Source of the DNA: a virus
Direction: 5' to 3' (one strand)
Virus record (IMG/VR): IMGVR_UViG_3300021138_000127
Span: 1-28,330 of that record
Length of the DNA stretch: 28,330 nt
Shown piece after piece: positions 2 through 27,898 of the stretch (positions within the stretch are counted from its first letter, which is position 1; every line of letters starts with the position of its first letter). The translations under genes were made by a program, and so were the position numbers. The notes beneath the pieces were generated by a model, which had not been told where the DNA came from, ran no database searches, and was given only the letters and a program-made list of their open reading frames with translations.

Positions 2-613
2 TTTGATGATCATAATAATTGGTATACAAAATGGTATATGAATAAAAATCCAGGATTTTTTATTGGTGGTCAACCAGTTTTAGAAAATTATAAAGATTTT
101 ATAGAAAAAAATATATTAGATAAATACGAATATTTGTGTCATATAGATTATAGCGATACTAAATTTTCAGGTAGCTTTATGGAAATGATGAAAAAATTCG
201 AATCATCCAATATGGATTTTATAATATCAACAGAAAAAAAATGTTGGCCATATCTTCACGCAGTTAATAACTGGTTAGATTCTCCATCATCAGACGAAGA
301 GTTTAAATTTATAAATTCGGGTGCAATTATATCAAAAACTGAAAAATTTTTACTATATTTAAATAAATTAATCGACATATGTTTAAATGAAAATATTGAT
401 TTTTGGGACGATCAGGGAGTTTGGCAATATTATAATTTGAAGATAGAAAAATTAAACGCAGATACTAATTGTGAGTACTTTTTTTCAACCTCAGAATTGG
501 ATGAAACTTACTATACAATTGAAAATAATAAAATAAAAACTAAATTTGAAACATATCCTTATTTAATTCACGATAATGGTAGTTTTAACTTAAACTTAAT
601 ATCAAAAATATGA
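2..613 (+). CDS. Glycosyltransferase-like protein, 5' end outside window
   Basis: The frame is open from base 2, so the true start lies upstream; the ATG at 38 is probably internal. The visible part holds CHIDYSD, FINSGAIIS and a downstream DDQGVW segment. This pattern (an acidic metal-binding motif, an 'NSG' strand, then D-D-Q) is seen in GT-A fold glycosyltransferases of the PLOD/procollagen-galactosyltransferase type. The likely role is sugar transfer onto a glycan or virion protein in the cytoplasm. The stop overlaps the next start (610) by 4 nt, which indicates translational coupling. The sugar donor cannot be told from the sequence. Confidence 0.6.
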   Translation, partial: FDDHNNWYTKWYMNKNPGFFIGGQPVLENYKDFIEKNILDKYEYLCHIDYSDTKFSGSFMEMMKKFESSNMDFIISTEKKCWPYLHAVNNWLDSPSSDEEFKFINSGAIISKTEKFLLYLNKLIDICLNENIDFWDDQGVWQYYNLKIEKLNADTNCEYFFSTSELDETYYTIENNKIKTKFETYPYLIHDNGSFNLNLISKI

Positions 614-1224
614 GCGGAGTAGCAGGACACTTTTTTTATAAAGATACCATCATTTCACAAAACCCAAATGTAGCGGGACCATTCAAAACATTATTTGAAA
701 CAATAAAACCAAATCAAATCCTTGAAGTTGGTACATCCCACGGAGGATTAACATTGTTATTGAGAGATTTATTAGACGAATCGGGTTTATCTGAATGTCA
801 ATTAACATCGTATGATGTTTTAGATTTTCAGAGATACGGATTAGATAAAGCAATAAATGAGGGTGCTAAAATAAATTTTATACTTAAAAATGTTTTCAAT
901 CATCAATACAATGATTTAGTGGAAATAGATGAAATTGTTAATTATATCAAACAATCGGGCCCTACAATTGTATTGTGTGATGGTGGAAGTAAAAAGAACG
1001 AGTTTAAAATATTGTCTAAATTTTTAAAACCAGGTGATATTATTATGGCTCACGACTATGCTGCTAACCAGCAATATTTTGAAGAAAATATAAAAGATAA
1101 AATTTGGAACTGGTTAGAAATACAAGATTCAGATATACAAGAAGCGTCTGATGAAAATGGATTAACTTCATTCCAACAAGATAATTTCACCAACGTTGTT
1201 TGGGTTTGTAAAATAAAAAATTAA
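610..1224 (+). CDS. SAM-dependent methyltransferase (CmcI/cephalosporin-hydroxylase-like)
   Basis: 204 residues. The glycine-rich SAM-binding motif ILEVGTSHGG lies near residues 37-46, followed by an acidic strand end (SYDVLD) and VLCDGGSKKNEF, then KPGDIIMAHDYA. This order of a class I Rossmann methyltransferase with 'CDGG...K' and 'GD...HDY' is characteristic of CmcI/rhamnosyl O-methyltransferase-like proteins (Methyltransf_24 group). It probably O-methylates a sugar, given the glycosyltransferases on both sides. It overlaps the preceding gene by 4 nt and is followed after 1 nt by the next, so the three form one operon. Confidence 0.7.
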   Translation: MSGVAGHFFYKDTIISQNPNVAGPFKTLFETIKPNQILEVGTSHGGLTLLLRDLLDESGLSECQLTSYDVLDFQRYGLDKAINEGAKINFILKNVFNHQYNDLVEIDEIVNYIKQSGPTIVLCDGGSKKNEFKILSKFLKPGDIIMAHDYAANQQYFEENIKDKIWNWLEIQDSDIQEASDENGLTSFQQDNFTNVVWVCKIKN

Positions 1225-1225
1225 T

Positions 1226-2899
1226 ATGTCTACAACAATAGTAACAGGTATTTGGGATATTAAAAGGGACCAATTATCAGAAGGATGGAATAGAAATTAT
1301 GATCATTACTTGAATAACTTAGCTAAGTTGATGAAGTGTGATGATAATATGATAATTTATATTGAAGAAAAATATAAATCATTTGTTGAAGAAAGAAGGG
1401 ACACTTCCAATACAATGATAATTGTTAGAGAAATTGATTGGTTCAAAAGTAATGGTGAAATGTGTAGTATGATTGAAAAAATAAGAACTAATCCTGATTG
1501 GTATAATCAATCTGGTTGGTTACCCGAAAGTACTCAAGCAAAATTAGAAATGTACAATCCGATTGTTATGTCAAAAATGTTTTTGATGAATGACGCAGCA
1601 ATATTGGATCCATTCAATTCAACTAATTTAGTTTGGATTGATGGAGCATTGACAAATACAGTTCACGAAGGTTATTTTTGGCACGATAATGTGGTTAAAA
1701 ATTTAGATAAGTTTTTCAATAAATTTAGTTTTGTTTGTTTCCCATACGATGGTAAAGTAGAAATACACGGATTCAAATATCAGGAGATTTGTCAATACGC
1801 TGAAGATGTAGTTAACAAAGTAGCTAGAGGTGGAATTTTTGGTGGTCCTAAAGAAATTATCAGTAGAGTAAACGACATTTACCATTCGTTATTGATGGAG
1901 ACGCTATCAAAAGGTTTGATGGGTACTGAAGAAAGTATTTTTACGATTATGGTCTACAAATATCCTGAACTTTTTCAGTACTACGAAATTGAAATGAATG
2001 GATTATTGGGGATGTTTTTCGAAAATCTAAAAAATAAAAATTTATACCCGAAAACAGAAAAAGCCGATACGATTAAAATTAATCCACACGATAAGAACAA
2101 CGTCGCTCTTTATGTACTGACTTATAATTCACCAAGTCAATTTGAAAAACTCTGTTTATCTTTTGGTGAATATGATGAAGATTTTTTGAATAAACCAAAG
2201 AAATATCTTATCAATAATTCATTGGATCACACTACAGATGAAGCTTATAATAACTTATGTGTTCAATACGGATTTGAAGAAATTAAAAAAGATAATATAG
2301 GTATTTGTGGTGGTAGACAATTTATAGCTGAACACGCAGATGAAAATGGATTCGACTATCATTTCTTTTTTGAGGATGATATGTTTTTTTATATGGGTGA
2401 GGATGAATTTTGTAAGAATGGTTTTAGAAGAAAAATTAAAAATTTCTATGATATTGTTATGAATATTACTTGGAATGAGAATTTTGATTTTTTAAAATGG
2501 AATTTTACGGAATTTTTCGGTGATAACAGTAAACAATGGGCTTGGCATAATGTACCTGCAGGAGTTAGAGCTGAATTATTTCCTGAAAAACCCGTTAAAA
2601 CAACAATTGATACCAATGCTGCTCCATTCTTAAAATTCAAAAATATAAAATCATACAGAAAAGTTCCATATGCAACTGGCGAGATTTATTATTGTAATTG
2701 GCCTCAAGTGGTTTCAAAAGAAGGAAATAGAAAAATGTTTTTAGATATTAAATGGGCCCATCCATTTGAACAAACTTGGATGTCTTATATGTACCAAGAA
2801 ACGTTGAAAGATAATTTATATCCGGGTATTTTATTAGCAACACCTACCGAGCATAATAGATTTGATTTTTATTCCGGTAGCGATAGAAGGGAAAATTGA
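1226..2899 (+). CDS. Two-domain glycosyltransferase (HtrL/YibB-like N-terminus, GT2-like C-terminus)
   Basis: 557 residues. The N-terminal ~230 residues begin TTIVTGIWDIKRDQ and contain LVWIDGAL and GGIFGGPKE, resembling the HtrL/YibB/WlaTC family. From about residue 290 a second domain starts with NNVALYVLTYNSP, typical of the first strand of GT2 glycosyltransferases, and carries the acidic motif FFEDDMFFY (about 383-391), which would bind the metal-nucleotide sugar. A fusion of two sugar-transfer domains suggests consecutive additions to one glycan. It lies 1 nt after the methyltransferase stop. The acceptor could be virion protein, host surface glycan or modified DNA; the sequence does not decide. 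Confidence 0.65.
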   Translation: MSTTIVTGIWDIKRDQLSEGWNRNYDHYLNNLAKLMKCDDNMIIYIEEKYKSFVEERRDTSNTMIIVREIDWFKSNGEMCSMIEKIRTNPDWYNQSGWLPESTQAKLEMYNPIVMSKMFLMNDAAILDPFNSTNLVWIDGALTNTVHEGYFWHDNVVKNLDKFFNKFSFVCFPYDGKVEIHGFKYQEICQYAEDVVNKVARGGIFGGPKEIISRVNDIYHSLLMETLSKGLMGTEESIFTIMVYKYPELFQYYEIEMNGLLGMFFENLKNKNLYPKTEKADTIKINPHDKNNVALYVLTYNSPSQFEKLCLSFGEYDEDFLNKPKKYLINNSLDHTTDEAYNNLCVQYGFEEIKKDNIGICGGRQFIAEHADENGFDYHFFFEDDMFFYMGEDEFCKNGFRRKIKNFYDIVMNITWNENFDFLKWNFTEFFGDNSKQWAWHNVPAGVRAELFPEKPVKTTIDTNAAPFLKFKNIKSYRKVPYATGEIYYCNWPQVVSKEGNRKMFLDIKWAHPFEQTWMSYMYQETLKDNLYPGILLATPTEHNRFDFYSGSDRREN

Positions 2900-2909
2900 T
2901 ATATTTATT
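2900..2909 (+). promoter_or_regulatory. Phage promoter-like motif (variant TATATTTATT)
   Basis: A match to the recurrent RATATTTATW motif of this window, but 39 nt before the ATG at 2949, further than in other cases. Weak assignment. Confidence 0.3.
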
Positions 2910-2948
2910 ACTACACAAAAACACCATAATAAACTAAACAAACCCCAG

Positions 2949-3216
2949 ATGGACGACAGTGATAGTAAAACAAATACACAAAATCAAACATCATTTTTCT
3001 CACAAAGAGAAAAGATTGATGTTTTACAAAGAGACATCTCTGATGTTAGCAATGTTCTTCCTACCTTTTGGATACGATGCCCTTTTCAAATTAATAATGG
3101 ACGCAACTGGTTCGTATTGGATAGCCGATATCGTTTTCTATTCTATTTCGGGATCTTTCTTTACGTTATACTTTTTATTCACGAGATACTTAAATAAAGA
3201 AAAAACCTCCAATTAG
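2949..3216 (+). pseudogene. Small membrane protein with apparent frameshift
   Basis: Two overlapping frames each look half right. From the ATG at 2949 the frame gives a hydrophilic, phage-like N-terminus (MDDSDSKTNTQ..., through SQREK). From about 3010 the +1 frame gives MFYKETSLMLAMFFLPFGYD and two hydrophobic segments (AMFFLPFGYDALFKLI and IVFYSISGSFFTLYFLF), ending at TAA 3216. The switch falls at an AAAA run (GAGAAAAGATTG), so one extra A, real or from sequencing, would explain it. A start at 2959 or 3021 in the second frame alone is possible. The protein would be a two-pass inner-membrane protein of about 88 residues; holin-like size, but no function is claimed. Confidence 0.5.
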
Positions 3217-3230
3217 GAGGTTTTCTTTTT
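3202..3230. terminator. Bidirectional intrinsic terminator between convergent genes
   Basis: AAAACCTCC (3202-3210), loop AATTA, GGAGGTTTT (3216-3224), with U-runs on both strands. Both convergent stop codons (plus strand 3214-3216, minus strand 3213-3215) lie inside it. Confidence 0.8.
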
Positions 3231-3356
3231 TTCGTCTGGTTTTTGTAAACCTTTCTTTAATTCTTCTTTTTTGGTGTTATCACCTTTAATTGCTGACTTA
3301 TGCTTTTCAAGAATTTTCTTTTTTTCTTGGTCAGTCATTCCAAATGGATTACTCAT
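3213..3356 (-). CDS. Small charged protein, 47 aa
   Basis: A short minus-strand frame starting MSNPFGMTDQEKKKILEKHK and ending KPDEKKKTS. It is lysine/glutamate rich and probably helical, with no membrane segment. The start ATG is at 3354-3356 and the stop lies in the terminator loop shared with the convergent gene. I do not recognise a family; 'DQEKKKILEKHK' resembles short tail segments of small phage proteins but no function is proposed. It is closely spaced (3 nt) after the next minus-strand gene, consistent with one operon. Confidence 0.6.
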   Translation of the reverse strand: MSNPFGMTDQEKKKILEKHKSAIKGDNTKKEELKKGLQKPDEKKKTS

Positions 3357-3359
3357 AGT

Positions 3360-3650
3360 TTATATTTTATTCATTATTGTTAAACACTCTTCTTTTTTAT
3401 ATTTCAATACCTGACATTTCTCATAATCTTCTATGTCTATAAGAGCTTGGGTTAACACATCGATTATTTCTATGTAAAATTCTAAATCATTATCATAGAT
3501 TAAGATTGTCCTGTTATTATTATAATCAATTAATGTTTCATAGTCAATAGAAATCACATAATTATATATCATTTCTAAATCATTATCGTGATAATTGTCT
3601 ACTTGTAATATTCTCGTAGCTTTTAACAAAAAATTATATGCAGGGTACAT
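3360..3650 (-). CDS. Hypothetical acidic protein, 96 aa
   Basis: Starts MYPAYNFLLKATRILQ, rich in Asp, Tyr and Ile, predicted mostly helical, without signal or membrane segment. A motif AGTATTTATAG directly precedes the ATG and resembles the phage promoter motif. It sits in a minus-strand run between a 113-codon gene and the 47-codon gene. Not recognised; function unknown. Confidence 0.6.
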   Translation of the reverse strand: MYPAYNFLLKATRILQVDNYHDNDLEMIYNYVISIDYETLIDYNNNRTILIYDNDLEFYIEIIDVLTQALIDIEDYEKCQVLKYKKEECLTIMNKI

Positions 3651-3660
3651 ACTATAAATA

Positions 3661-4002
3661 CTACAAAATATTCCTCATTTTTTTGTCTAAGATTTTGAAA
3701 CATTCATAAAATCCTTCTATTTCAATATCCTCCCGATTTTGTTTGGAACAATCGCCCAAACCAAAAACAACCCCATTACTCAAAGATACTGAAAATATCC
3801 ATTGGGACGGTTTACATATCTCAGTAGTTAAATAAACACCTTCTTTATCAAAAAAATAATAGAGTTTTTTAATATCATAAAAATAAAGACTCGAAATGCT
3901 TATAATTCCTAAGTTTGGAAACATCCTTTCCTTGAATCTTTTAAAGGCAATAGGATATAAAAATTCAATCGTATACCAGTCCATACTTTTAATTATGTTC
4001 AT
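3661..4002 (-). CDS. Hypothetical protein, 113 aa
   Basis: Starts MNIIKSMDWYTIEFLYPIAF and contains aromatic-rich segments (SSLYFYDIKKLYYFFDKEGVYLT) and WIFSVSLSNGVVFGLGDCSKQNREDIEIEGFYECFKILD. It looks like a compact alpha/beta protein. It is the first gene of a short minus-strand run (4002 to 3213), divergent from the gene at 4080. Not recognised; it could be a small accessory protein of phage origin. Confidence 0.6.
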   Translation of the reverse strand: MNIIKSMDWYTIEFLYPIAFKRFKERMFPNLGIISISSLYFYDIKKLYYFFDKEGVYLTTEICKPSQWIFSVSLSNGVVFGLGDCSKQNREDIEIEGFYECFKILDKKMRNIL

Positions 4003-4079
4003 TTTAGTTGATTTTATATATATGACTTATAAAAAAAATTATCTTTTGAAAAAAAACCATATAATTATGATTATTTGAA

Positions 4080-4319
4080 ATGAATATATTAGAACATTAT
4101 TACATAGAAGATAAGAGAACCCTTTATATTGAATTTTCAACAAAAGAAGATGGTGACGATTTTTATCGAATTTTAGAATTGGGTTTTGAAGATATTGAAT
4201 ACTATTCCCCCACTATCATTTATGAGGATGAATTGAGAAGTATTGACGAGATTTTTATATTTGACCTTATTGAGCAATATTTATTAGATAACGATCTACC
4301 AGAGGAACAGAAACTCTGA
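4080..4319 (+). CDS. Hypothetical acidic protein, 79 aa
   Basis: Starts MNILEHYYIEDKRTLYIEFST; strongly acidic with many Glu, Asp and Tyr. The alternation of EDKRTLYIEF and FEDIEYYSP suggests a small beta-alpha fold. It is divergent from the minus-strand gene starting at 4002 and 13 nt before the metallopeptidase gene, whose promoter motif overlaps its stop. Not recognised. Confidence 0.55.
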   Translation: MNILEHYYIEDKRTLYIEFSTKEDGDDFYRILELGFEDIEYYSPTIIYEDELRSIDEIFIFDLIEQYLLDNDLPEEQKL

Positions 4320-4327
4320 TATTTATA
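4318..4327 (+). promoter_or_regulatory. Phage promoter motif GATATTTATA
   Basis: Exact GATATTTATA ending 5 nt before the ATG at 4333. Confidence 0.55.
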
Positions 4328-4332
4328 TTTGT

Positions 4333-4695
4333 ATGACCGATAATCAAAAAGAACAACTTAAAGATTTTGCTAAATTTGTAAGAGAAAAATTGGAACTTGA
4401 AAAAGCTCCTATTATCTCAATTCAAAATGGTAGAGGTGATTTGAAAACAACAGCAAATTACGATTATACCAAGGAAAAGAAAGTTATTAAGGTAAACGCT
4501 AAGAACAGAGCATTGGTTGACGTAATGAGGAGCCTGGCTCATGAAATGGTACATCACAAACAGTATGAACAAGGTCGTCTCAAAGTAAAACCACCAGATA
4601 TCGGTGGTGAGATTGAGGATGAAGCTAATGCTAAGGCTGGTCAATACATCAAAATGTTTTCAAAAATAGATCCTTCAATCTATGATATCGATTAA
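4333..4695 (+). CDS. Small zinc metallopeptidase-like protein (HExxH)
   Basis: 120 residues. LAHEMVHHKQ carries HExxH at H70-E71-H74, and a likely third ligand is in GGEIEDEANAKAGQY about 20 residues on, the arrangement of short gluzincin-type or SprT/ImmA-like peptidases. No signal peptide is seen, so it would act in the cytoplasm or be packaged. The gene stands alone with its own GATATTTATA motif. Phages carry such mini-peptidases as regulators or structural processing factors; which applies here is not known. Confidence 0.65.
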   Translation: MTDNQKEQLKDFAKFVREKLELEKAPIISIQNGRGDLKTTANYDYTKEKKVIKVNAKNRALVDVMRSLAHEMVHHKQYEQGRLKVKPPDIGGEIEDEANAKAGQYIKMFSKIDPSIYDID

Positions 4696-4749
4696 GACTA
4701 CAATTAAATCACAATAATCGATATATTAAGGATTTAATACTAATTTTTA

Positions 4750-4759
4750 GATATTTATA
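4750..4759 (+). promoter_or_regulatory. Phage promoter motif GATATTTATA
   Basis: Exact motif ending 4 nt before the ATG at 4764. If it acts as a -10-like box, the message is nearly leaderless. Confidence 0.6.
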
Positions 4760-4763
4760 ACCT

Positions 4764-6254
4764 ATGAAGGTGTCTATAACCGAGAAACAACTTAAAAGAT
4801 TAATTTCAAAACAAGTTAAAACTGATTTTGGTGAAGCTGAATCTGCTACAGGTGATAAATCACCTAAATCGGGTGCTTCAGACAATCAATCAGGTGGAAA
4901 AGGTTATCCTGAAGTAACGACTTGGTCAGATACCGTAGGTAAAGAATTAACGAGAGGTGTAGGTAATCCAATTGACGATAAAACCAAATGGGCTGATGAT
5001 ATTAAGATTACAAGAGGGCCAGGGAATGAGTTAAAGGAACAGAATGATTTTGATCAAATGTCCAACATGGTTGACGGAGATGAACAAAAAAAACAGGCGG
5101 AATTAACTCAAAAGAAAAATACGTTTGATCAAAATAATTTTAATTTTAAAATACCTCCAAGTACTGTAAATCCAAATAGTACGGGTATATTAATACCTAA
5201 AACATATAAAGGTATCACAACAACATACTCTTTATGGGATAATAAGTACAATCCAAATGAATTTTTTAAAAGTTGGGTAAATTCTGAATGGGAAGATTTA
5301 ATACCTGACGATAAGACAGTTAGAGAAATGATTCCACTTAATACCTTACGTAGTTTTACTATAGGTGGAAATCAATATATTCCTTATATTAAAAAAATTA
5401 GTGATAATCCATTAAGATATAAGTTTATGTGGTATTATGATAAAAACGAAAAACCGTACAATGTAAAAGATTATTTGGATATCAAAAATATTCCACATGA
5501 ATATCAAGAGAAAACATTTTGGGAAAATTATGGTGAAATGATTTTACAGGTTGGTTTGGGTTTAGTTGCAAGTTTAGCGACTTTTGGTATCGGTGGGATT
5601 ATAGAAGCATCTGCAGCCTCAATATTTTGGGCTGAAGCAGCTGCTCAGGCTGGTGTTAATATTTCTTTCGGTTTTTATGACAAATATAAGAAAGGGGATG
5701 ATTTCGGAGCTTCAATGAACTTTTTGTTTGCTATTCTACCTTTTATTTCAAGAGGATTGGGAATTGGATATGCAAGTTCACAATCAGTAGAATCTATGAA
5801 ATCAACATTAGAATTAACAGGTAAAGAAACTTTACAAGAATTTGAACAAAAAATTACCACAAACTTTGAGAAATTATCACCTAATGAAAAAGTTACATTG
5901 AGAAAAATTTTAAATTTAGAGCCCAATAAAGTAAACATTGAAACAAGAAAATTTGTCAATCAAGTTATGAATAACTTGAAAAATAAAGGTATCAATATTA
6001 ATGATATTAAAGTAAGTTTACTTAAAAAACATGCAACAAAAGACTTACTTCTCCAATTAAGTGCAGGTAGTGCATATGGTTTATACCATACAGGAAAAGA
6101 ACTATATGGTAATGCTGCTAAAAATGTGAATAAAAAACAAACATTACAAAATTTAAACACAATAGACTCAACACAAGCTAACGATATAATGAGGGGTTTT
6201 GCACAACAATTAGATACTATTGATGTAAGTAGGAGATTGGGGTTGAAAAATTAA
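4764..6254 (+). CDS. Probable virion-associated protein with hydrophobic segment
   Basis: 496 residues starting MKVSITEKQLKRLI, a basic amphipathic helix. A Gly/Ser/Asp-rich stretch follows (about 30-110), then a soluble part with many Trp/Tyr. Hydrophobic segments span about residues 255-330 (ILQVGLGLVASLATFGIGGI, IFWAEAAAQAGVNISFG, MNFLFAILPFISRGLGIGYA), and the C-terminus is helical. Together with the next two genes it forms a plus-strand unit where each protein begins with a similar short helix. Such proteins with late pore-like helices are often internal or ejection proteins of phages; this is inference, as no family is recognised. Confidence 0.55.
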   Translation: MKVSITEKQLKRLISKQVKTDFGEAESATGDKSPKSGASDNQSGGKGYPEVTTWSDTVGKELTRGVGNPIDDKTKWADDIKITRGPGNELKEQNDFDQMSNMVDGDEQKKQAELTQKKNTFDQNNFNFKIPPSTVNPNSTGILIPKTYKGITTTYSLWDNKYNPNEFFKSWVNSEWEDLIPDDKTVREMIPLNTLRSFTIGGNQYIPYIKKISDNPLRYKFMWYYDKNEKPYNVKDYLDIKNIPHEYQEKTFWENYGEMILQVGLGLVASLATFGIGGIIEASAASIFWAEAAAQAGVNISFGFYDKYKKGDDFGASMNFLFAILPFISRGLGIGYASSQSVESMKSTLELTGKETLQEFEQKITTNFEKLSPNEKVTLRKILNLEPNKVNIETRKFVNQVMNNLKNKGININDIKVSLLKKHATKDLLLQLSAGSAYGLYHTGKELYGNAAKNVNKKQTLQNLNTIDSTQANDIMRGFAQQLDTIDVSRRLGLKN

Positions 6255-8659: not shown

Positions 8660-8676
8660 GCCTCTTTGTTGTTTTA
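8651..8676 (+). terminator. Intrinsic terminator
   Basis: GAGGC-GTAA-GCCTC hairpin followed by TTTGTTGTTTT. The tetraloop contains the TAA stop of the short ORF. It ends plus-strand transcription before the convergent smpB. Confidence 0.75.
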
Positions 8677-9111
8677 TATAGTTACTGATCTTTTGATTTC
8701 TCGTTCAGAATCCCTTTTTTTAATTGTTTCTCTTTTATCATAGGACTTTTTACCTCTACAAATACCAATTTCAATTTTGAAATAATTTGAGTCATTAAAA
8801 AAACCTTTCAATGGTACAATCGTGTATCCTTTTTCTTTAATCATTCCCTGTATATTGCTCAATTCTTTTTTTGTTAAAAGCAGTTTCCTATCTCTAACAT
8901 TATCATGTTTTTCCCCGAATGAATAATCGGAAATATAGATTCCACGAACGAATAGTTCGTTATTGATAAACAAACAAAAAGAATCGTTGAAGTTTAGTTT
9001 ACCCTCACGGATAGATTTAATTTCGGTACCAATTAATTGTATACCTGCGGTGTATTTGTCCTCTATTGAGTAATTGAAATATGCCTTCCGATTATCTATT
9101 ATGTTTTTCAT
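8674..9111 (-). CDS. smpB: SsrA-binding protein SmpB (trans-translation factor)
   Basis: 145 residues from ATG 9111 (MKNIIDNRKAYFNYSIEDKY); an upstream in-frame ATG at 9156 would add 15 residues absent from the family. Clear SmpB signatures: the N-terminal N-R-K-A-Y-F-x-Y, AGIQLIGTEIKSIREGKLNFNDSF, a middle ISDYSFGEKHDN, RKLLLTKKEL, GYTIVPLKGFF and GICRGKKSYDKRETIKKRDSEREIKR. SmpB binds the tRNA-like part of tmRNA, brings it to stalled ribosomes, and its C-terminal tail fills the empty mRNA channel; the tail here is short (RSVTI). The tmRNA gene lies about 640 nt away on the same strand, separated by an HNH endonuclease gene in the opposite direction. A phage-coded SmpB is rare. Confidence 0.93.
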   Translation of the reverse strand: MKNIIDNRKAYFNYSIEDKYTAGIQLIGTEIKSIREGKLNFNDSFCLFINNELFVRGIYISDYSFGEKHDNVRDRKLLLTKKELSNIQGMIKEKGYTIVPLKGFFNDSNYFKIEIGICRGKKSYDKRETIKKRDSEREIKRSVTI

Positions 9112-9175
9112 AATACGAATATACATATTATTTTTAAAATATTGACACATCTCCATAATTTTTAACCATCTCCAT

Positions 9176-9185
9176 AATATTTATT
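9176..9185 (+). promoter_or_regulatory. Phage promoter motif AATATTTATT
   Basis: Motif ending 3 nt before the ATG of the HNH endonuclease gene at 9189. Confidence 0.5.
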
Positions 9186-9188
9186 AAT

Positions 9189-9734
9189 ATGGAAAAAAGA
9201 AAAATTAAATATAAAATGGGATCCACAATTTGTAAAAATTGCGGGATTCAGTTTGAAAAACCGCTAACCGAAATAAGAAGAAATGAAAAATTAAATAGAC
9301 CTAATTTTTGTTCTAGAACGTGTGTTGGAAAAAATAATTCAAATAATTTTGGAGATAAAAGAAGCAATTATAACATTTCACAACATTCAAATAATCAACT
9401 AGACTGTTATACCAAATTTAGGTACCATTATCGAAATATATTGAAAAGAAATCAAGAAGTTAATATTACTATAGAGGATTTAAAAAATCAATGGGATAAA
9501 CAAAATGGTGTTTGTGTATTTAGTGGGGTTGAATTAATATTATCTTCATATAGTAAAATTAAAAAAAATCCAATTTATTCTGCATCATTAGATAGAATTG
9601 ATAGTACAAAAGGTTATATTAGAGGAAATATAAGATGGGTATCGAGAGCGATAAACTGGATGAAAAATGATATGTCGGATGAAATGGTTAATGAATTAAT
9701 TAACCATTTGATAGAAAATAAAAAAGAGTCTTAG
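9189..9734 (+). CDS. Free-standing HNH homing endonuclease
   Basis: 181 residues. An N-terminal zinc-finger pair (CKNCGIQFEKP ... FCSRTCVGK) comes first. The HNH-type core follows: GVCVFSGVELIL, then SASLDRIDSTKGYIRGNIRWVSRAINWMKND, which carries the D-R-I-D, G-Y and N-I-x-W-V motifs of phage HNH enzymes. It would cut DNA near its own insertion site and spread by recombination. The gene sits between smpB (divergent) and the 3' end of tmRNA (convergent, 12 nt away), so the tmRNA locus may be its target. It has its own AATATTTATT motif, like the other endonucleases here. Confidence 0.85.
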   Translation: MEKRKIKYKMGSTICKNCGIQFEKPLTEIRRNEKLNRPNFCSRTCVGKNNSNNFGDKRSNYNISQHSNNQLDCYTKFRYHYRNILKRNQEVNITIEDLKNQWDKQNGVCVFSGVELILSSYSKIKKNPIYSASLDRIDSTKGYIRGNIRWVSRAINWMKNDMSDEMVNELINHLIENKKES

Positions 9735-9747
9735 AAGACTCCTTTTT
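9726..9747. terminator. Bidirectional terminator between HNH gene and tmRNA
   Basis: GAGTCT-TAGA-AGACTC hairpin, with AAAAAA on the left and CTTTTT on the right, overlaps the TAG stop of the HNH gene and follows the CCA end of tmRNA on the minus strand. Confidence 0.75.
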
Positions 9748-10150
9748 GGCGGAGATGAGCGGACTCGAACCGCTGTGTTTCCTGTTCAACAATAAGTGAC
9801 TACACGTTTATTCAATTGGTTCTCAATTAACAAATAGAAGGTTCTTTTTTTTCCATCATTACCTACAACTGTGGGAAGATCACTTTAATCGGTAGACCCT
9901 CAAACGGTACCTTGACACTCTAAGGTGGTATCACACCGTAAGGACTTCTGTTCCTAGGTTATATGTCCGTCGACCCGAGGTAGGAACCTAATTTAATTAG
10001 GCAGCTACTTTAGAAGTTGCAAGAACACCTGCAATTTCCATGTTGTTATAAACGTTTGCGTTTATTTTTTTAGTCCAGTTTTTGAAGAGTTATACTAGCT
10101 CTTACGTGCCACCTATCCCTGATACCTGAAATCAAATCCAAGGCATCCCC
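9747..10150 (-). ncRNA. ssrA: tmRNA (transfer-messenger RNA), one-piece
   Basis: 404 nt on the minus strand. The 5' end GGGGATG pairs with CATCTCC at the 3' end (one G-U), followed by discriminator G and an encoded CCA at 9747. The T-arm is AGCGG-TTCGAGT-CCGCT, and 5'-GGGGATGCCTTGGATTTGA is the usual tmRNA opening without a D-stem. An internal frame opens with GCAAAC at 10059 and ends with TAA at 9997. The RNA enters stalled ribosomes with SmpB, is charged with alanine, and adds a degradation tag. It is a standard one-piece tmRNA, not the permuted form. A host-type promoter box lies just upstream and a terminator just downstream. Confidence 0.93.
9997..10059 (-). CDS. tmRNA tag reading frame (20 aa)
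   Basis: Encodes ANVYNNMEIAGVLATSKVAA then TAA; with the alanine carried by tmRNA the tag would be 21 residues. The resume codon GCA is followed by AAC, as in many tmRNAs. The tag is long, and its end is VAA rather than the common LAA; the final two alanines suited to ClpXP are kept. The start could only be shifted by changing frame into early stops. Confidence 0.85.
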   Translation of the reverse strand, partial: ANVYNNMEIAGVLATSKVAA

Positions 10151-10170
10151 ATATAAAAAACAAAGATATG

Positions 10171-11238: not shown

Positions 11239-12231
11239 CTGAGGTCTGTACGGTTCAAATAAATTTTAACCGAGTCCACCACTTAGTTTTAAAAAACTAA
11301 GAAAAATAAGTTTAAATAAAACTCTGAGAATACAAGTTTTAACAATCGACTTGGGAACATTATTTGTTTCTTTCCTTTTCCACAACCTTTTGAGTTGTAT
11401 CGATCAATGACGGTCAATTAGATTAACCAATCCTGAAGTTATTAGATACTCTTTTAATACTTATTACTCATCAAAGATGCCTCTCTGATTCAACCTTGCG
11501 GGTTTAGAGAACTTTCTCAAAAATCATATTGGGCTTGAGACCCTTTATGGCAATGAACAGCTCATTACTATGTAGTCATCTATCTCCAATAACTGGTGAA
11601 CACTTGCTCTTGTTTTATATGATTGTTAAACCAAAATTAACAAATTGAGTTTGGTTTGCAGATGAGGAAAGTAGTGGTTCACCAACCAGCCAAGCCACCT
11701 TTTGAGCGACTCGATACTAAACTACTCTCTGATGTCTCCCGACATCCATATTTTTGGTTTCCTTCGAGATTAAACCCTTGGTAGGATTTAGTCAAGGACA
11801 ATAGCAGCACCACCTGTTCTTTGCCATACCTTCCGTATTGCTACGCTACGGTTTTAAGACCACCATTATATTGAACCACGCAATAATAAAGTTGGATGAC
11901 TTTATTTCTTACAATAGTTCTACGAGTTATTCTTATTGATGTTCCCACCTCAACCAGACAACCTGCATTGCCCAGTCATCGAACCCTTTCGCTACGGAGT
12001 TACCCTCACTACTTCAGGTCCAACGATATCTCGCTTGTCTACTCGAGCTCCATTGCTGAAGCCGCAAATCGATTAAACCAAACCGATTCACTTTATCCCA
12101 CTTTCGTGGTTTATTTTATTGACTATAGACCGCCAATATTTTTAATTCAAAGAACTATTCAATTAAATAAGAACAATCTTTACCCTCTAAGCTACGGACA
12201 GATGGGATTTGTATTCCGTCGATTGTTCCTT
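11206..12231 (-). ncRNA. Giant structured non-coding RNA, ~1.03 kb (GOLLD/ROOL-like candidate)
   Basis: This stretch has no plausible gene on either strand, yet it is bounded on the minus strand by a TATCTTTG promoter box and a strong terminator. It is more GC-rich than its neighbours and full of hairpins: GAACAATC/GATTGTTC enclosing ACGGA/TCCGT at the 5' end, CCAC-GAAA-GTGG (12098-12109), CCGTA/TACGG (11833-11851), GATGTC-GGGA-GACATC (11731-11746), CTTAGTTTT/AAAACTAAG (11282-11301), CGGTT/AACCG (11251-11272) and others with GNRA loops. Large ornate RNAs of about 600-1000 nt near phage tRNA genes are known as GOLLD and ROOL. I cannot confirm membership by sequence, so it may be a divergent member or a new class. 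Confidence 0.75.
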
Positions 12232-18386: not shown

Positions 18387-19016
18387 TTATTTTTTATATG
18401 TTCTACCTAATTCCCAACCAATAGGAATTACTTCAATTTTTTTAATTTTTTTATTTTCATTTCCGTTAGTTATCCATTGTGTTCCAAATTGTGAATTTTT
18501 TTCACCTTTTTGTTTGATTGAATTACTAAATCCAATTTTTATTTTTGTCTCTTCTTTATGTTTTTTACCTGTCCAGTTATCTTTATATTTTAAAATACCA
18601 TTAGCCCATAATTCTTTTGATTGCTTAGATTTCCATTCTGATTTTCTTTTTCTAAAATTTTCATCTCTCCAAATTATTTCTAACATTTTTTTGGCGCCTT
18701 TTTTATATCCACATTCAGATATAAAACCTCCGCCACCACCAAAAACCAGATTCAAACAATTTTCATCTGATAAAAGTTCTTTATTAACGATTTCTTTTTC
18801 TCTTTCTTTTAATAATTTTCTATTAGGTAAAATTTCGATAATTTCACATTTGAAATTTTCTTTACCATATTTTTTTATTGAATACCATAATCGTTTTCCG
18901 CTACCAACATAACCGTCATCAAGATTATCAGTTGAATGCATTCCTATATAATATTTTTCATTTATAAGATTGGTTGTTTTATAAATGTAATGGAAACTTT
19001 TTTCTTTTCTTGGCAT
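18387..19016 (-). CDS. GIY-YIG homing endonuclease
   Basis: 209 residues. HYIYKTTNLINEKYYIGMHSTDN carries the two GIY-YIG halves (YIY...YIG), followed by DGYVGSGKRLWYSIKKYGKENF with the family's Arg region, and EREKEIVNKELL with the catalytic-type Glu. The C-terminus has NUMOD3-like DNA-binding segments (WTGKKHKEETKIKIGFSNS) and SQFGTQWITNGNENKKIKK. It nicks or cuts DNA to home into endonuclease-less copies. A paralogue lies at 21772-22422. The stop codon touches tRNA-Thr, and a GATATTTATA motif lies 14 nt upstream. Confidence 0.88.
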   Translation of the reverse strand: MPRKEKSFHYIYKTTNLINEKYYIGMHSTDNLDDGYVGSGKRLWYSIKKYGKENFKCEIIEILPNRKLLKEREKEIVNKELLSDENCLNLVFGGGGGFISECGYKKGAKKMLEIIWRDENFRKRKSEWKSKQSKELWANGILKYKDNWTGKKHKEETKIKIGFSNSIKQKGEKNSQFGTQWITNGNENKKIKKIEVIPIGWELGRTYKK

Positions 19017-21771: not shown

Positions 21772-22422
21772 TTAGATTAAACTTAAATTGTTTAATTTTT
21801 TCTTTATTTTCCTACCTAATCTCCAACCATCAGGTATTGGGTGTGTTTTCTTTATTTTTTTATTTTCAATTTCATTTGTTATCCATTGAGTTCCAAATTG
21901 TGAATTTGATGACCCAACACCAAACCCTTTTTTAGATAATTTCATTTTTTCAATGGTTTCACTTTTATGTTTTCTTCCTGACCAATCTAAATTAGGTTTT
22001 ATTTTATTTAATACTTTTTCACGATATTCCATATCAGTTTTCATATTAGTTTTATGAATTTCATGAAACATTAACCATACCGCTCTCCCACCGGCAGCGT
22101 GAAATTTTCTTTTATGTTCTTCATTTGACAATCCACCTCCACCACCTATTTGTAGATTCAAACACATGTCATTATTTAATAATTCTTCATTTACTAATTC
22201 TTTTTCCCTTTCTTTTAATTTTTTTCTATTAGGTAACATTTCAAGTATTTCACACTTAAAATTTTCTTTACCATATTTTTTTATTGAATACCATAATCGT
22301 TTTCCACTACCAACATATCCATCATTTAAGTCGTCTGTTGTGTGCATTCCTATATAGTATTTCCCATTTATAAGATTCGTTGTTTTATAAATGTAATGAT
22401 ACTTCTTTTGTTTTCTTGGCAT
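21772..22422 (-). CDS. GIY-YIG homing endonuclease (paralogue of 18387-19016)
   Basis: 216 residues. The first ~80 residues are nearly identical to the other GIY-YIG protein: HYIYKTTNLINGKYYIGMHT, DGYVGSGKRLWYSIKKYGKENFKCE, ERE-KELVNEELL. The middle diverges (SNEEHKRKFHAAGGRAVWLMFHEIHK), then a NUMOD-like WSGRKHKSETIEKMKLSKKG and SQFGTQWITNEIENKKIKK recur. Same catalytic domain with a changed DNA-binding middle is how such enzymes gain new targets. It lies between tRNA-Met and tRNA-Ser(TGA) and has a phage motif 15 nt upstream. Confidence 0.88.
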   Translation of the reverse strand: MPRKQKKYHYIYKTTNLINGKYYIGMHTTDDLNDGYVGSGKRLWYSIKKYGKENFKCEILEMLPNRKKLKEREKELVNEELLNNDMCLNLQIGGGGGLSNEEHKRKFHAAGGRAVWLMFHEIHKTNMKTDMEYREKVLNKIKPNLDWSGRKHKSETIEKMKLSKKGFGVGSSNSQFGTQWITNEIENKKIKKTHPIPDGWRLGRKIKKKLNNLSLI

Positions 22423-24990: not shown

Positions 24991-25668
24991 ATGTCACAAT
25001 ATGATAGTTTATATGAGAAGGGATACTATTTCGGTAATTTATCTGAATTAGATGTTAATATGGAAGAATTTATAAAAATATCCAATGCGGTTTATTCATT
25101 TGAAAAAGATAGATCGAAGTATTTTGATTATTTTAATGTTGTTGATGATAAGATGCCACATAAAATTCCCTACTCAGAAAAACAAGATAGAATAAATTAT
25201 TTGGAAAATAATCCTCAAGTTACCGCTTGTAATTCTTCACATAATTTACTTGTATCTAATGAAACAAAATATTGTATTGATTATTTTCAAGATGTTGTTT
25301 CAAAATTTTTTCATAAAATTCATTCAGACTACACTGAAGAAAAATTTAAGAATGGTGACATTAATTCAAATAGTGGCATTCAAATGTATGATAAGGGATG
25401 TTATCAAAATGCGCATACTGATGGACACGTAGGTGAATTTGTCATAATAATTTATTTCTCAGACCCATCAAATTATAATAATACTGGTAGACTAGAAATA
25501 TTAAAAGATTCATACTCAAATGAAGAAATAATTGATTTTGTTGATCCTGTTTTAGGTAAATTTTCAATATTTGAGGTTGTTAAAAATAACGTAAGACATC
25601 GTGTACAAAAAGTTGATGGTGATTTTATTAGATTTTCTTTTTTAGCACAAATAAGAAAAAATTTTTAA
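24991..25668 (+). CDS. 2-oxoglutarate/Fe(II)-dependent oxygenase (prolyl-hydroxylase-like)
   Basis: 225 residues. The facial triad is visible as H142-x-D144 (NAHTDGH) and H203 (NNVRHRVQ), with R214 (DFIRFSF) to bind 2-oxoglutarate. The strands GEFVIIIYFSDP and TGRLEIL and GKFSIFEV match the double-stranded beta-helix of P4H-type oxygenases. It would hydroxylate a protein, base or small molecule. Large phages often carry such enzymes for DNA or protein modification; the substrate is unknown. It converges with the FG-GAP gene, stops overlapping by 4 nt. Confidence 0.8.
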   Translation: MSQYDSLYEKGYYFGNLSELDVNMEEFIKISNAVYSFEKDRSKYFDYFNVVDDKMPHKIPYSEKQDRINYLENNPQVTACNSSHNLLVSNETKYCIDYFQDVVSKFFHKIHSDYTEEKFKNGDINSNSGIQMYDKGCYQNAHTDGHVGEFVIIIYFSDPSNYNNTGRLEILKDSYSNEEIIDFVDPVLGKFSIFEVVKNNVRHRVQKVDGDFIRFSFLAQIRKNF

Positions 25669-27071
25669 TTTCCCTTGAAATACGTTGTTCTCAATTTATT
25701 TGTATAGTTATCATATTGATAGTAATTCTTCTCAACAAAACTATTTCCTGTTCTCAAAAAGATTGTTTTATTATATAGTAAATTATTTGGTGTATTATAT
25801 TGTGTAACTCCTGCGTCAATATAACCTATATCTTTTTTTCCATCATTATTGAAATCATAATATACTAATTTACCTCTCCAACTTGTTTTAGTTAAACTTG
25901 GATCGTTAATTATCCAAGAATTATCAATATTAAATGAACCATTTGATTGTTGAATATAAACAACAATATTCCAAGTTGAATAATTAACCGTATTCAAAGC
26001 TATTAAGTCTTTTAAACCATCTCCGTTTAAATCATCTACTATATAATCAATTTGAACAACATTAGTTGCGGGATAATAAGGTAAAGTGTCAACATTTTGG
26101 TCATTAAATCTTCCTTTACCTTGATTTAGTAATATTTTTTGTTGCACGTTATTTGATTTGTCTTCACCGAAACAAATCACTAAATCATTTTTTCCGTCAT
26201 TGTTTACGTCCATAATGCGACCTCCATAAGCTGCTCCTGCAGCTGCTGTAACCACCTCACCAAAACCATTATCGGGATGAAAGTTTTTTGTGTCAGAAGC
26301 AAAATGTGCAAATCCGTTATTTGTGAAATATGGATATGAGGGTATACCCCAAAATATGTATGTATGTGAATTACAAGTTACCAACAAATCTGGTATTCCA
26401 TCTTCATTCAAATCACCAACATCACCACCTTCTATTGTGAAATGTAATAAATCAGGTTGGATTAAACCGTCTAATTTCGTCAAATCATATCCACCTTTAC
26501 CGTCACTAATTGCTAAAGTAATTGGTTCCAAAGGTGAATTTGGGTCCCCTTCGTCGTGATGACCAAAAATAACTAAATCAACATAATTGTCACCATTTAA
26601 ATAAACAGGTACAACTTTAATTGGTCCACCAATAAAATTAGTTTTATCGTTAATTAAATTTTGCTCTTTAAATGTCTTAGAAGCGGTGTCCCAAATTAAA
26701 AAAGATAGGTTTGATTGAATACCATTGTAAGCTGAACCTGCATTGAACACATCAATATAACCATCATTATTGAAATCACCTAAAGCTAATTGGGTGGTGA
26801 ATGCTGATAAACAACTTGATCCATTATTCCCTTGAGTTATTCCTTTTTGGAATATATCAACCATAATATCAGGTAAAACTTGTGTATTTTGCCAATAACT
26901 GCTACCTAACTGACGAGCATTTGGTGCTACTTTGTAACCATAAAAAACTGTATCTACAGCAGTAGCTACTATAGCGGTATTTGTTGTAGTGGTACTGATA
27001 TGGGTAAAATCATCGGTTTTTCTACAAGAAAACAAGGTTAAAACTAACACTGAAAAGACTAATTTTTGCAT
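25665..27071 (-). CDS. FG-GAP/VCBS repeat lipoprotein
   Basis: 468 residues. Starts MQKLVFSVLVLTLFSCRKTD: a lipoprotein signal with lipobox Cys16. At least six calcium-binding-like repeats follow, each D-x-N-x-D-G-x-x-D (DFNNDGYIDVF, DLNEDGIPDLLV, DVNNDGKNDLVI, DLNGDGLKDLIAL, DFNNDGKKDIGYID), as in integrin-type beta-propellers. It would be displayed at the host outer membrane or cell surface, a probable adhesin or surface-altering protein. Such proteins are typical of Bacteroidota genomes, so capture from a host is likely. Confidence 0.82.
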   Translation of the reverse strand: MQKLVFSVLVLTLFSCRKTDDFTHISTTTTNTAIVATAVDTVFYGYKVAPNARQLGSSYWQNTQVLPDIMVDIFQKGITQGNNGSSCLSAFTTQLALGDFNNDGYIDVFNAGSAYNGIQSNLSFLIWDTASKTFKEQNLINDKTNFIGGPIKVVPVYLNGDNYVDLVIFGHHDEGDPNSPLEPITLAISDGKGGYDLTKLDGLIQPDLLHFTIEGGDVGDLNEDGIPDLLVTCNSHTYIFWGIPSYPYFTNNGFAHFASDTKNFHPDNGFGEVVTAAAGAAYGGRIMDVNNDGKNDLVICFGEDKSNNVQQKILLNQGKGRFNDQNVDTLPYYPATNVVQIDYIVDDLNGDGLKDLIALNTVNYSTWNIVVYIQQSNGSFNIDNSWIINDPSLTKTSWRGKLVYYDFNNDGKKDIGYIDAGVTQYNTPNNLLYNKTIFLRTGNSFVEKNYYQYDNYTNKLRTTYFKGN

Positions 27072-27247: not shown

Positions 27248-27898
27248 ATGGAAAAGATAATCGCACTAACGTCTAATTTGAAAGAAAAATTCGTCTATGG
27301 ATTTTTGATTTTATTCGGAGCTTGGTTAATATTTGCTCTTGGTTTAATATTTTATACTGTATTTTTAGAAGCTACAGGTAATGAAACGGCTTTACAGAAT
27401 ATGGCTAACCAATTTGAATGGAAATTTGATGGTACATTCAAAAACGATCCAAATAACATTTGGTATAATGCAGACGAACAAATGTTTGTGGAAAGCGTAA
27501 CAAATAAGGTTGTTATTGGAAAATTAGCGGGAAATAGAAATTTAGCTTTTGGAGTGAAAAACATCTTGGAAGAATTTTTACAAGAAAAGGGTTACAATCT
27601 TTCACCATCAGCCCCTAACAAACTTCAAGTCGAAATTATATTTTTAGATGTATTAACAACCAAAAAAAATATATCAGTTTTTCACAAAAACGATGAAGAA
27701 GTGGTTGTTCGTATGAAGGGTAATGTAATAAAAAATGGTAAAAAGGGTAAAGATATAATCGTAGAAGCTTCTTCAGATGAAATATCTATGTCAACTTTAG
27801 CTATTGATGAAGGTGGTAAATTCAATCAACAAAGTTTGAGTAATGCAATAAAGAAAGCGTGTGAATCGCTTGTTAAAGAAATAGAAAAACAAAAATAA
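27248..27898 (+). CDS. Membrane-anchored protein, 216 aa
   Basis: One membrane helix near the N-terminus (about 15-37: FVYGFLILFGAWLIFALGLIF) and a soluble domain. In it LQVEIIFLDVLTTKKNISVFHKNDEEVVVRMKGNVIKNGK and SSDEISMSTLAIDEGGKFNQQSLSNAIKKACESLVKEIEKQ resemble YajG/LPS-lipoprotein-like domains, where alternating strands are followed by a C-terminal helix. It lies 23 nt before the next gene on the same strand. No closer identification. Confidence 0.6.
   Translation: MEKIIALTSNLKEKFVYGFLILFGAWLIFALGLIFYTVFLEATGNETALQNMANQFEWKFDGTFKNDPNNIWYNADEQMFVESVTNKVVIGKLAGNRNLAFGVKNILEEFLQEKGYNLSPSAPNKLQVEIIFLDVLTTKKNISVFHKNDEEVVVRMKGNVIKNGKKGKDIIVEASSDEISMSTLAIDEGGKFNQQSLSNAIKKACESLVKEIEKQK

Follow-up and report, generated by a model that had tools for sequence, protein, structure and literature searches.

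An uncultured phage carries smpB beside a long-tag tmRNA gene, a probable trans-translation pair

Our analysis supports the model that the stretch of DNA studied here (the window, a linear IMG/VR virus record of 28,330 bp) encodes a working phage trans-translation pair, an SmpB protein and a tmRNA that probably rescue ribosomes during infection and mark the released chains with a phage-specific tag. The initial annotation had reported such a pair within 1.5 kb; its coordinates are right and both genes are present, 0.6 kb apart on the minus strand. Both are intact and under selection, the tmRNA has alanine identity and a tag unlike those of the presumed host, the DNA is of phage origin and smpB is an accessory gene. 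From these properties we infer expression, ribosome rescue and the protease fate of tagged proteins. The source is probably a large uncultured T4-like phage with a Bacteroidota host. The features of the locus are these:

8674–9111, minus strand: smpB, 145 amino acids, matching PF01668 and SmpB in the PDB
9116–9123, minus strand: TATATTCG, one base off TAnnTTTG, just before smpB; relatives have TAnnTTTG at the same place
9189–9734, plus strand: open reading frame for a homing-type HNH endonuclease, 181 amino acids (phrog_3322, E = 1e-21, and other HNH families)
9720–9746, minus strand: terminator-like hairpin and T run directly 3′ of the tmRNA, from comparison of the window with L002, L003, L005 and L006
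9747–10150, minus strand: tmRNA (ssrA), one-piece form with an encoded CCA end, found with RF00023 and ARAGORN
9997–10059, minus strand: tag reading frame ANVYNNMEIAGVLATSKVAA followed by TAA, 20 codons, read by ARAGORN and conserved in frame among relatives
10161–10168, minus strand: promoter-like element TATCTTTG, which fits TAnnTTTG, upstream of the tmRNA, from comparison with relatives
11321–11729, minus strand: GOLLD RNA (RF02032, 297.7 bits), upstream of the tmRNA and on the same strand

The smpB gene had been described as intact, and the family model bears this out: PF01668 (Pfam) matches the window protein with 180 bits (cut-off 27; E = 3e-53) over positions 1–141 of 143, and SmpB structures in the PDB are matched with E = 1e-43. 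A longer open reading frame begins at 9156 (8674–9156, minus strand); translation probably starts from the ATG at 9111, which yields 145 residues in agreement with all close relatives. The basic C-terminal tail with its DKR motif (mRNA channel) is present (GKKSYDKRETIKKRDSEREIKR), the tail GKKSYDKRETIKKRD is conserved, and GK and YDKRETIK are invariant across 20 phage SmpBs. Within the clade dN/dS is 0.02–0.09, values that are rough at a dS near saturation and that indicate strong purifying selection. The longer frame also matches PHROG 6791 (E = 3e-47), a phage protein family listed as of "unknown function" whose members are evidently SmpBs. Between the HNH frame and smpB (9133–9180, minus strand) lie two TATGGAGATGG-like copies that resemble the 5′ end of the tmRNA (ATGGGGATG) and are also found in L005 and L006; they may be what is left of a tmRNA end that was duplicated.

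The tmRNA, likewise said to be intact, scores far above chance with the RF00023 covariance model of Rfam (85.8 bits, gathering score 47; full length, 1–374; E = 3e-32) and is called independently by ARAGORN. The Rfam alignment runs continuously across the mRNA-like domain (pseudoknot region) and is poorly supported there. Pairing in the tRNA-like domain is complete, with 7 of 7 pairs in the acceptor stem GGGGATG/CATCTCC and 5 of 5 in the T-arm AGCGG-TTCGAGT-CCGCT, and both stems show compensatory changes among 38 distinct relatives. The alanine determinant G3:U70 is present in the window and in all 38 distinct tRNA-like domains; the scan takes the best-pairing frame, so that 100% pairing is partly by construction, whereas U70 (free to be C) and A73 are unforced. 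At the discriminator (position 73; window 9750) 37 of the 38 domains have A and the window, as the sole exception, has G, a minor element that would lower the expected charging of this copy while leaving its place in the family untouched. ARAGORN alone finds no tmRNA in L002, L006, L007 and L008 and shortens the tag of L003, and for these we used Rfam and reading by hand. A blastn search with the window tmRNA against annotated phages returned no match, and thus no isolate with this tmRNA family there. Elsewhere among the phage tmRNAs, group I introns interrupt the T-loop in L175 (343–548, minus strand, 72.5 bits) and L068 (1318–1532, minus strand, 68.7 bits); tmRNA genes with an intron are already known in bacteria.

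The hairpin 3′ of the tmRNA maintains its pairing while its stem sequence varies among relatives, so that tmRNA and smpB are probably transcribed separately. An element of the TAnnTTTG type, the form of the Bacteroidota –7 promoter element, stands before the tmRNA across the clade (8 of 8 tmRNAs compared) and before smpB in most clade members. With one changed base in its smpB promoter element and a G discriminator in its tmRNA, the window copy may work less well.

The window tag has 20 residues and ends KVAA, and its resume codon, GCA (alanine), is preceded by ATAAAC; most phage relatives resume on glycine, as Bacteroidota do. An exact 19-base core motif of the window tmRNA, a query that favors one tmRNA subfamily, is found in 116 stretches of viral contigs; the analysis covered 80 of these loci. 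Automatic extraction from 79 of these loci and the window gave 49 distinct tags, all of 20–24 residues, which are related within classes and are not independent events; the tag of L227, outside automatic extraction, reads GKTFAKMAALGLTREASVVAA (21 residues). The main classes have the forms [G/D/A]NVYxxMExxGxLATSxVA(V)A, GNV[L/I]xK[M/L]xxxGLxRxExxVxA, GNTFAKMAxLGLxxEAxVxA and xSTMTFEDLMAFVGADYAVAA (first residues less certain), and the conserved inner motif is [VT][YLF]xxM...GL. In frame, pN/pS is 0.28–0.59 versus 0.65–3.6 in the other two frames, with a weak contrast in the TFAK class (0.59 versus 0.65 and 0.78); by this measure the tag family is under purifying selection. In a search based on SmpB, made without the motif, 16 of 18 records likewise have long tags (alignment and hand count), the two short ones being GEDEYAMAA and ADDYNYAVAA.

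Chromosomal tags of Bacteroidota have 9 residues and the form GxxxYA[L/M]AA in 27 of 27 tmRNAs examined, 26 as given by ARAGORN and one, which ARAGORN misread, as GENTYAMAA. Neither the window tag nor any of the 49 distinct family tags is a short tag ending YA[L/M]AA, and a search of 199 genomes from one Bacteroidota order for the phage core motif, tolerating one mismatch, found none. These comparisons suggest that the phage tag, about twice the host length, has been rewritten by such phages for their own use. The earlier proposal that the pair could replace host tagging gains support, since the tag encoded here is very different from those of hosts.

How the pair might act can be outlined from these features. 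The phage tmRNA would be charged with alanine through G3:U70 and bound by SmpB, either its own or, in most relatives, presumably the host's. During infection the complex would enter ribosomes that have stalled on cut or non-stop mRNAs and free them; rescue after destruction of host mRNA, as first suggested, is plausible. Rescued chains would receive the phage tag of about 20 residues in place of the host's nonapeptide. We favor the reading that this tag is most likely still directed to a protease yet re-coded: hydrophobic residues followed by alanine, with alanine always last, would fit a degron, and the longer body could give the phage control over what becomes of the fragments, for instance by way of another adaptor or protease. 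The smpB gene, acquired from a Bacteroidota chromosome and set beside the tmRNA, would supply a dose-matched or specificity-matched partner. More tentatively, large Bacteroidota phages may use the re-coded, conserved tag of 20–24 residues to send chains to another protease, adaptor or fate and so take over protein quality control in the infected cell, with the window lineage made self-sufficient by its own SmpB.

The main rival to a working pair of this kind, which we think unlikely, holds that the tag has lost its role as a degradation signal: ribosomes would be freed and the fragments marked as stable, localized or bound by phage proteins, so that proteolysis is spared or host proteins are redirected. 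The doubled length and the conserved inner motif fit such a role, as do the 32 of 49 distinct tags that lack a final Ala-Ala and end in VA, GA, KA, LA or IA. However, the last residue is alanine in all 49 and is preceded by hydrophobic residues, and the penultimate residue is also alanine in 17, the window included. E. coli tag variants ending -LVA are known to be degraded.

Most phages that carry this tmRNA have no smpB. PF01668 matched nothing in 50 virus records with the tmRNA motif (0 of 50, including records of 317, 335 and 238 kb), although absence from a fragment does not prove absence from that phage. A syntenic record 96% identical to window positions 87–5039 and with an identical tag, L212, has the empty site: no more than 80 bp past its tmRNA begins the sequence that the window has beyond smpB, with neither smpB nor the HNH gene, and smpB was not found in the entire 30-kb record. 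Together these results identify smpB as an accessory addition of Bacteroidota origin that is gained or lost as a module. It is dispensable in near relatives, which counts against a working pair. The scarcity of smpB also bears on a quite improbable alternative, in which the phage tmRNA, with or without SmpB, is a decoy that poisons host trans-translation or competes with it, a role proposed for the tag-less tmRNA fragment of mycobacteriophage DS6A. Most relatives do carry tmRNA without SmpB, and two reports describe inhibition of tmRNA by a tRNA-like tmRNA fragment, perhaps through titration of SmpB (PMC4131195, PMC11915505). A decoy needs no tag, however, whereas every relative keeps its tag frame intact and selection acts on it; supplying SmpB would also ease the titration.

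Where smpB is present, it often lies close to the tmRNA. Among 43 SmpB-bearing virus records, 18 have a tmRNA above the cut-off, and in 11 of these 18 the two genes are at most 5 kb apart (positions worked by hand), in several separate SmpB lineages. The closest relatives of the window, L002–L007, have SmpBs 83–88% identical to its own and all have the tmRNA beside smpB, with only 40–66 bp between the genes in L002 and L003; in the window they are separated by the HNH frame on the opposite strand, which the initial annotation did not include. In an SmpB tree whose bacterial members were selected for being closest to the phage sequences, the window clade stands apart from other phage SmpBs, and the topology requires two or more switches of carrier between phages and bacteria. 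In the flanks (up to 3 kb) of 80 bacterial smpB loci a tmRNA was found at one Clostridiales locus and at no Bacteroidota locus; the adjacency thus most likely arose in phages. The view that a phage SmpB next to its tmRNA is unusual is partly supported: both genes in one phage have been published before, and their close adjacency is lineage-specific and belongs to a minority of phages. Matches to smpB in annotated temperate phages of Staphylococcus, Klebsiella and E. coli were left uncounted, as they are probably host flanks of integration sites, with the features at record ends.

That host ssrA and smpB were caught by imprecise excision or transduction and are carried unselected is very improbable. 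Some of the temperate-phage matches look like such flanks, and the HNH gene beside the tmRNA suggests mobility. Against this stand the low dN/dS of smpB, the lack of decay seen in either gene within the clade, the occurrence of the tmRNA motif in 116 viral stretches and in none of 199 genomes from a host order, and the Bacteroidota smpB loci, from which the adjacency was not copied since none of those examined has a tmRNA in its flank of up to 3 kb.

The pair was claimed to be phage-borne, and the window is indeed phage DNA rather than chromosome, because a T4-type Gp23 capsid gene is present in close relatives (the L002, L003 and L004 records), as is a large terminase in one of them (the 203-kb record of L002). 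In the window itself a search for terminase found none, and capsid families had no match among the 20 window proteins scanned. The phylogeny against host SmpBs proposed at the outset nests the window clade within Bacteroidota SmpB, with the nearest bacterial matches 63% identical; this nesting, the TAnnTTTG elements and the glycine resume codon of most relatives point to a Bacteroidota host for what are, in the window and its relatives alike, uncultured metagenomic fragments. That a piece of host chromosome was misfiled here as virus, as a window lacking terminase and capsid matches might suggest, is scarcely credible beside syntenic relatives with the Gp23 capsid (and in L002 the terminase), a tRNA array with GOLLD and homing endonucleases, and a tmRNA core motif not found in the genomes of one Bacteroidota order.

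With about 19 tRNAs, the GOLLD RNA and genes of the HNH and GIY-YIG-like kinds, the surroundings of the pair are in keeping with a large-phage translation island. Related proteins, GIY-YIG-like as judged by eye, are encoded at 18387–19016 and 21772–22422 (both minus strand) in the window's tRNA cluster and 3′ of the tmRNA in L186 and L217, and the tmRNA 3′ flank seems to be a hot spot for homing-type endonucleases. GOLLD is present in 8 of the 43 SmpB-bearing virus records, in several relatives within the same translation island; it adjoins smpB and tmRNA in L008 and L048 and also occurs in L003. This RNA forms nanocages and binds ribosomes in pull-downs (PMC12286853), properties that make its recurring place in the tmRNA/smpB island deserve attention. 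Farther along the window, 25665–27071 (minus strand) encodes an FG-GAP repeat protein with a lipoprotein-like signal, an unusual phage cargo, and 27248–27898 is a second lipoprotein-like open reading frame. Three SmpB-bearing phage records contain tRNAs with a CTA anticodon (called Pyl) or an odd TCTA (L010, 7578–7652; L014, 3636–3708; L308, 2039–2114, minus strand), possibly amber suppressors, and possibly a sign of stop-codon reassignment.

Phage tmRNAs have so far been mostly curiosities whose use was guessed at. With a large family whose long, selected tag is clearly unlike the host nonapeptide, that use becomes open to experiment. Should the tag redirect proteolysis, phages would have edited the way bacteria control the quality of their proteins. 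The presence and absence of smpB between near-identical phages is, moreover, a natural experiment on bringing one's own partner protein. The long-tag family and the clustering of smpB with it are not described in the passages of PMC-indexed papers that we consulted.

The chromosomal ssrA and smpB of Bacteroidota resemble those of the window in SmpB sequence (up to 63% identity), in promoter type (TAnnTTTG) and, for most phage relatives though not the window with its alanine codon, in the glycine resume codon. They differ in the 9-residue tag (27 of 27), in the tmRNA core and, at the loci examined, in having no smpB within 3 kb of the tmRNA. That tmRNA and SmpB can occur in one phage is already known: Al-Shayeb et al. 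(2020) reported both in huge phages, naming the genes without discussing tags or adjacency in the accessible part of the paper (PMC7162821). In the huge phages, as far as that part goes, and in the Lak phages of Prevotella, both lie among other translation genes, as in the window. The two Lak genomes examined differ in that tmRNA and smpB are far apart and the tags have 10 residues (DDEIDFRMAA and DDEIEFRMAA), against adjacent genes and 20 residues here. One 636-kb record has a 24-residue tag, DNVNSFEQSILNELFAPVEMAVAA, long like those of the window family. Phage ssrA genes have also been described in the mycobacteriophages Bxz1, Wildcat and DS6A and in Bacillus phage G (PMC4131195), and a two-piece tmRNA in the OM43 phage Melnitz (PMC9004378), with no phage smpB mentioned in the accessible parts of either report. 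DS6A has the tRNA-like part only and Melnitz a tmRNA in two pieces; the window, in contrast, combines a one-piece tmRNA of the long-tag family with smpB.
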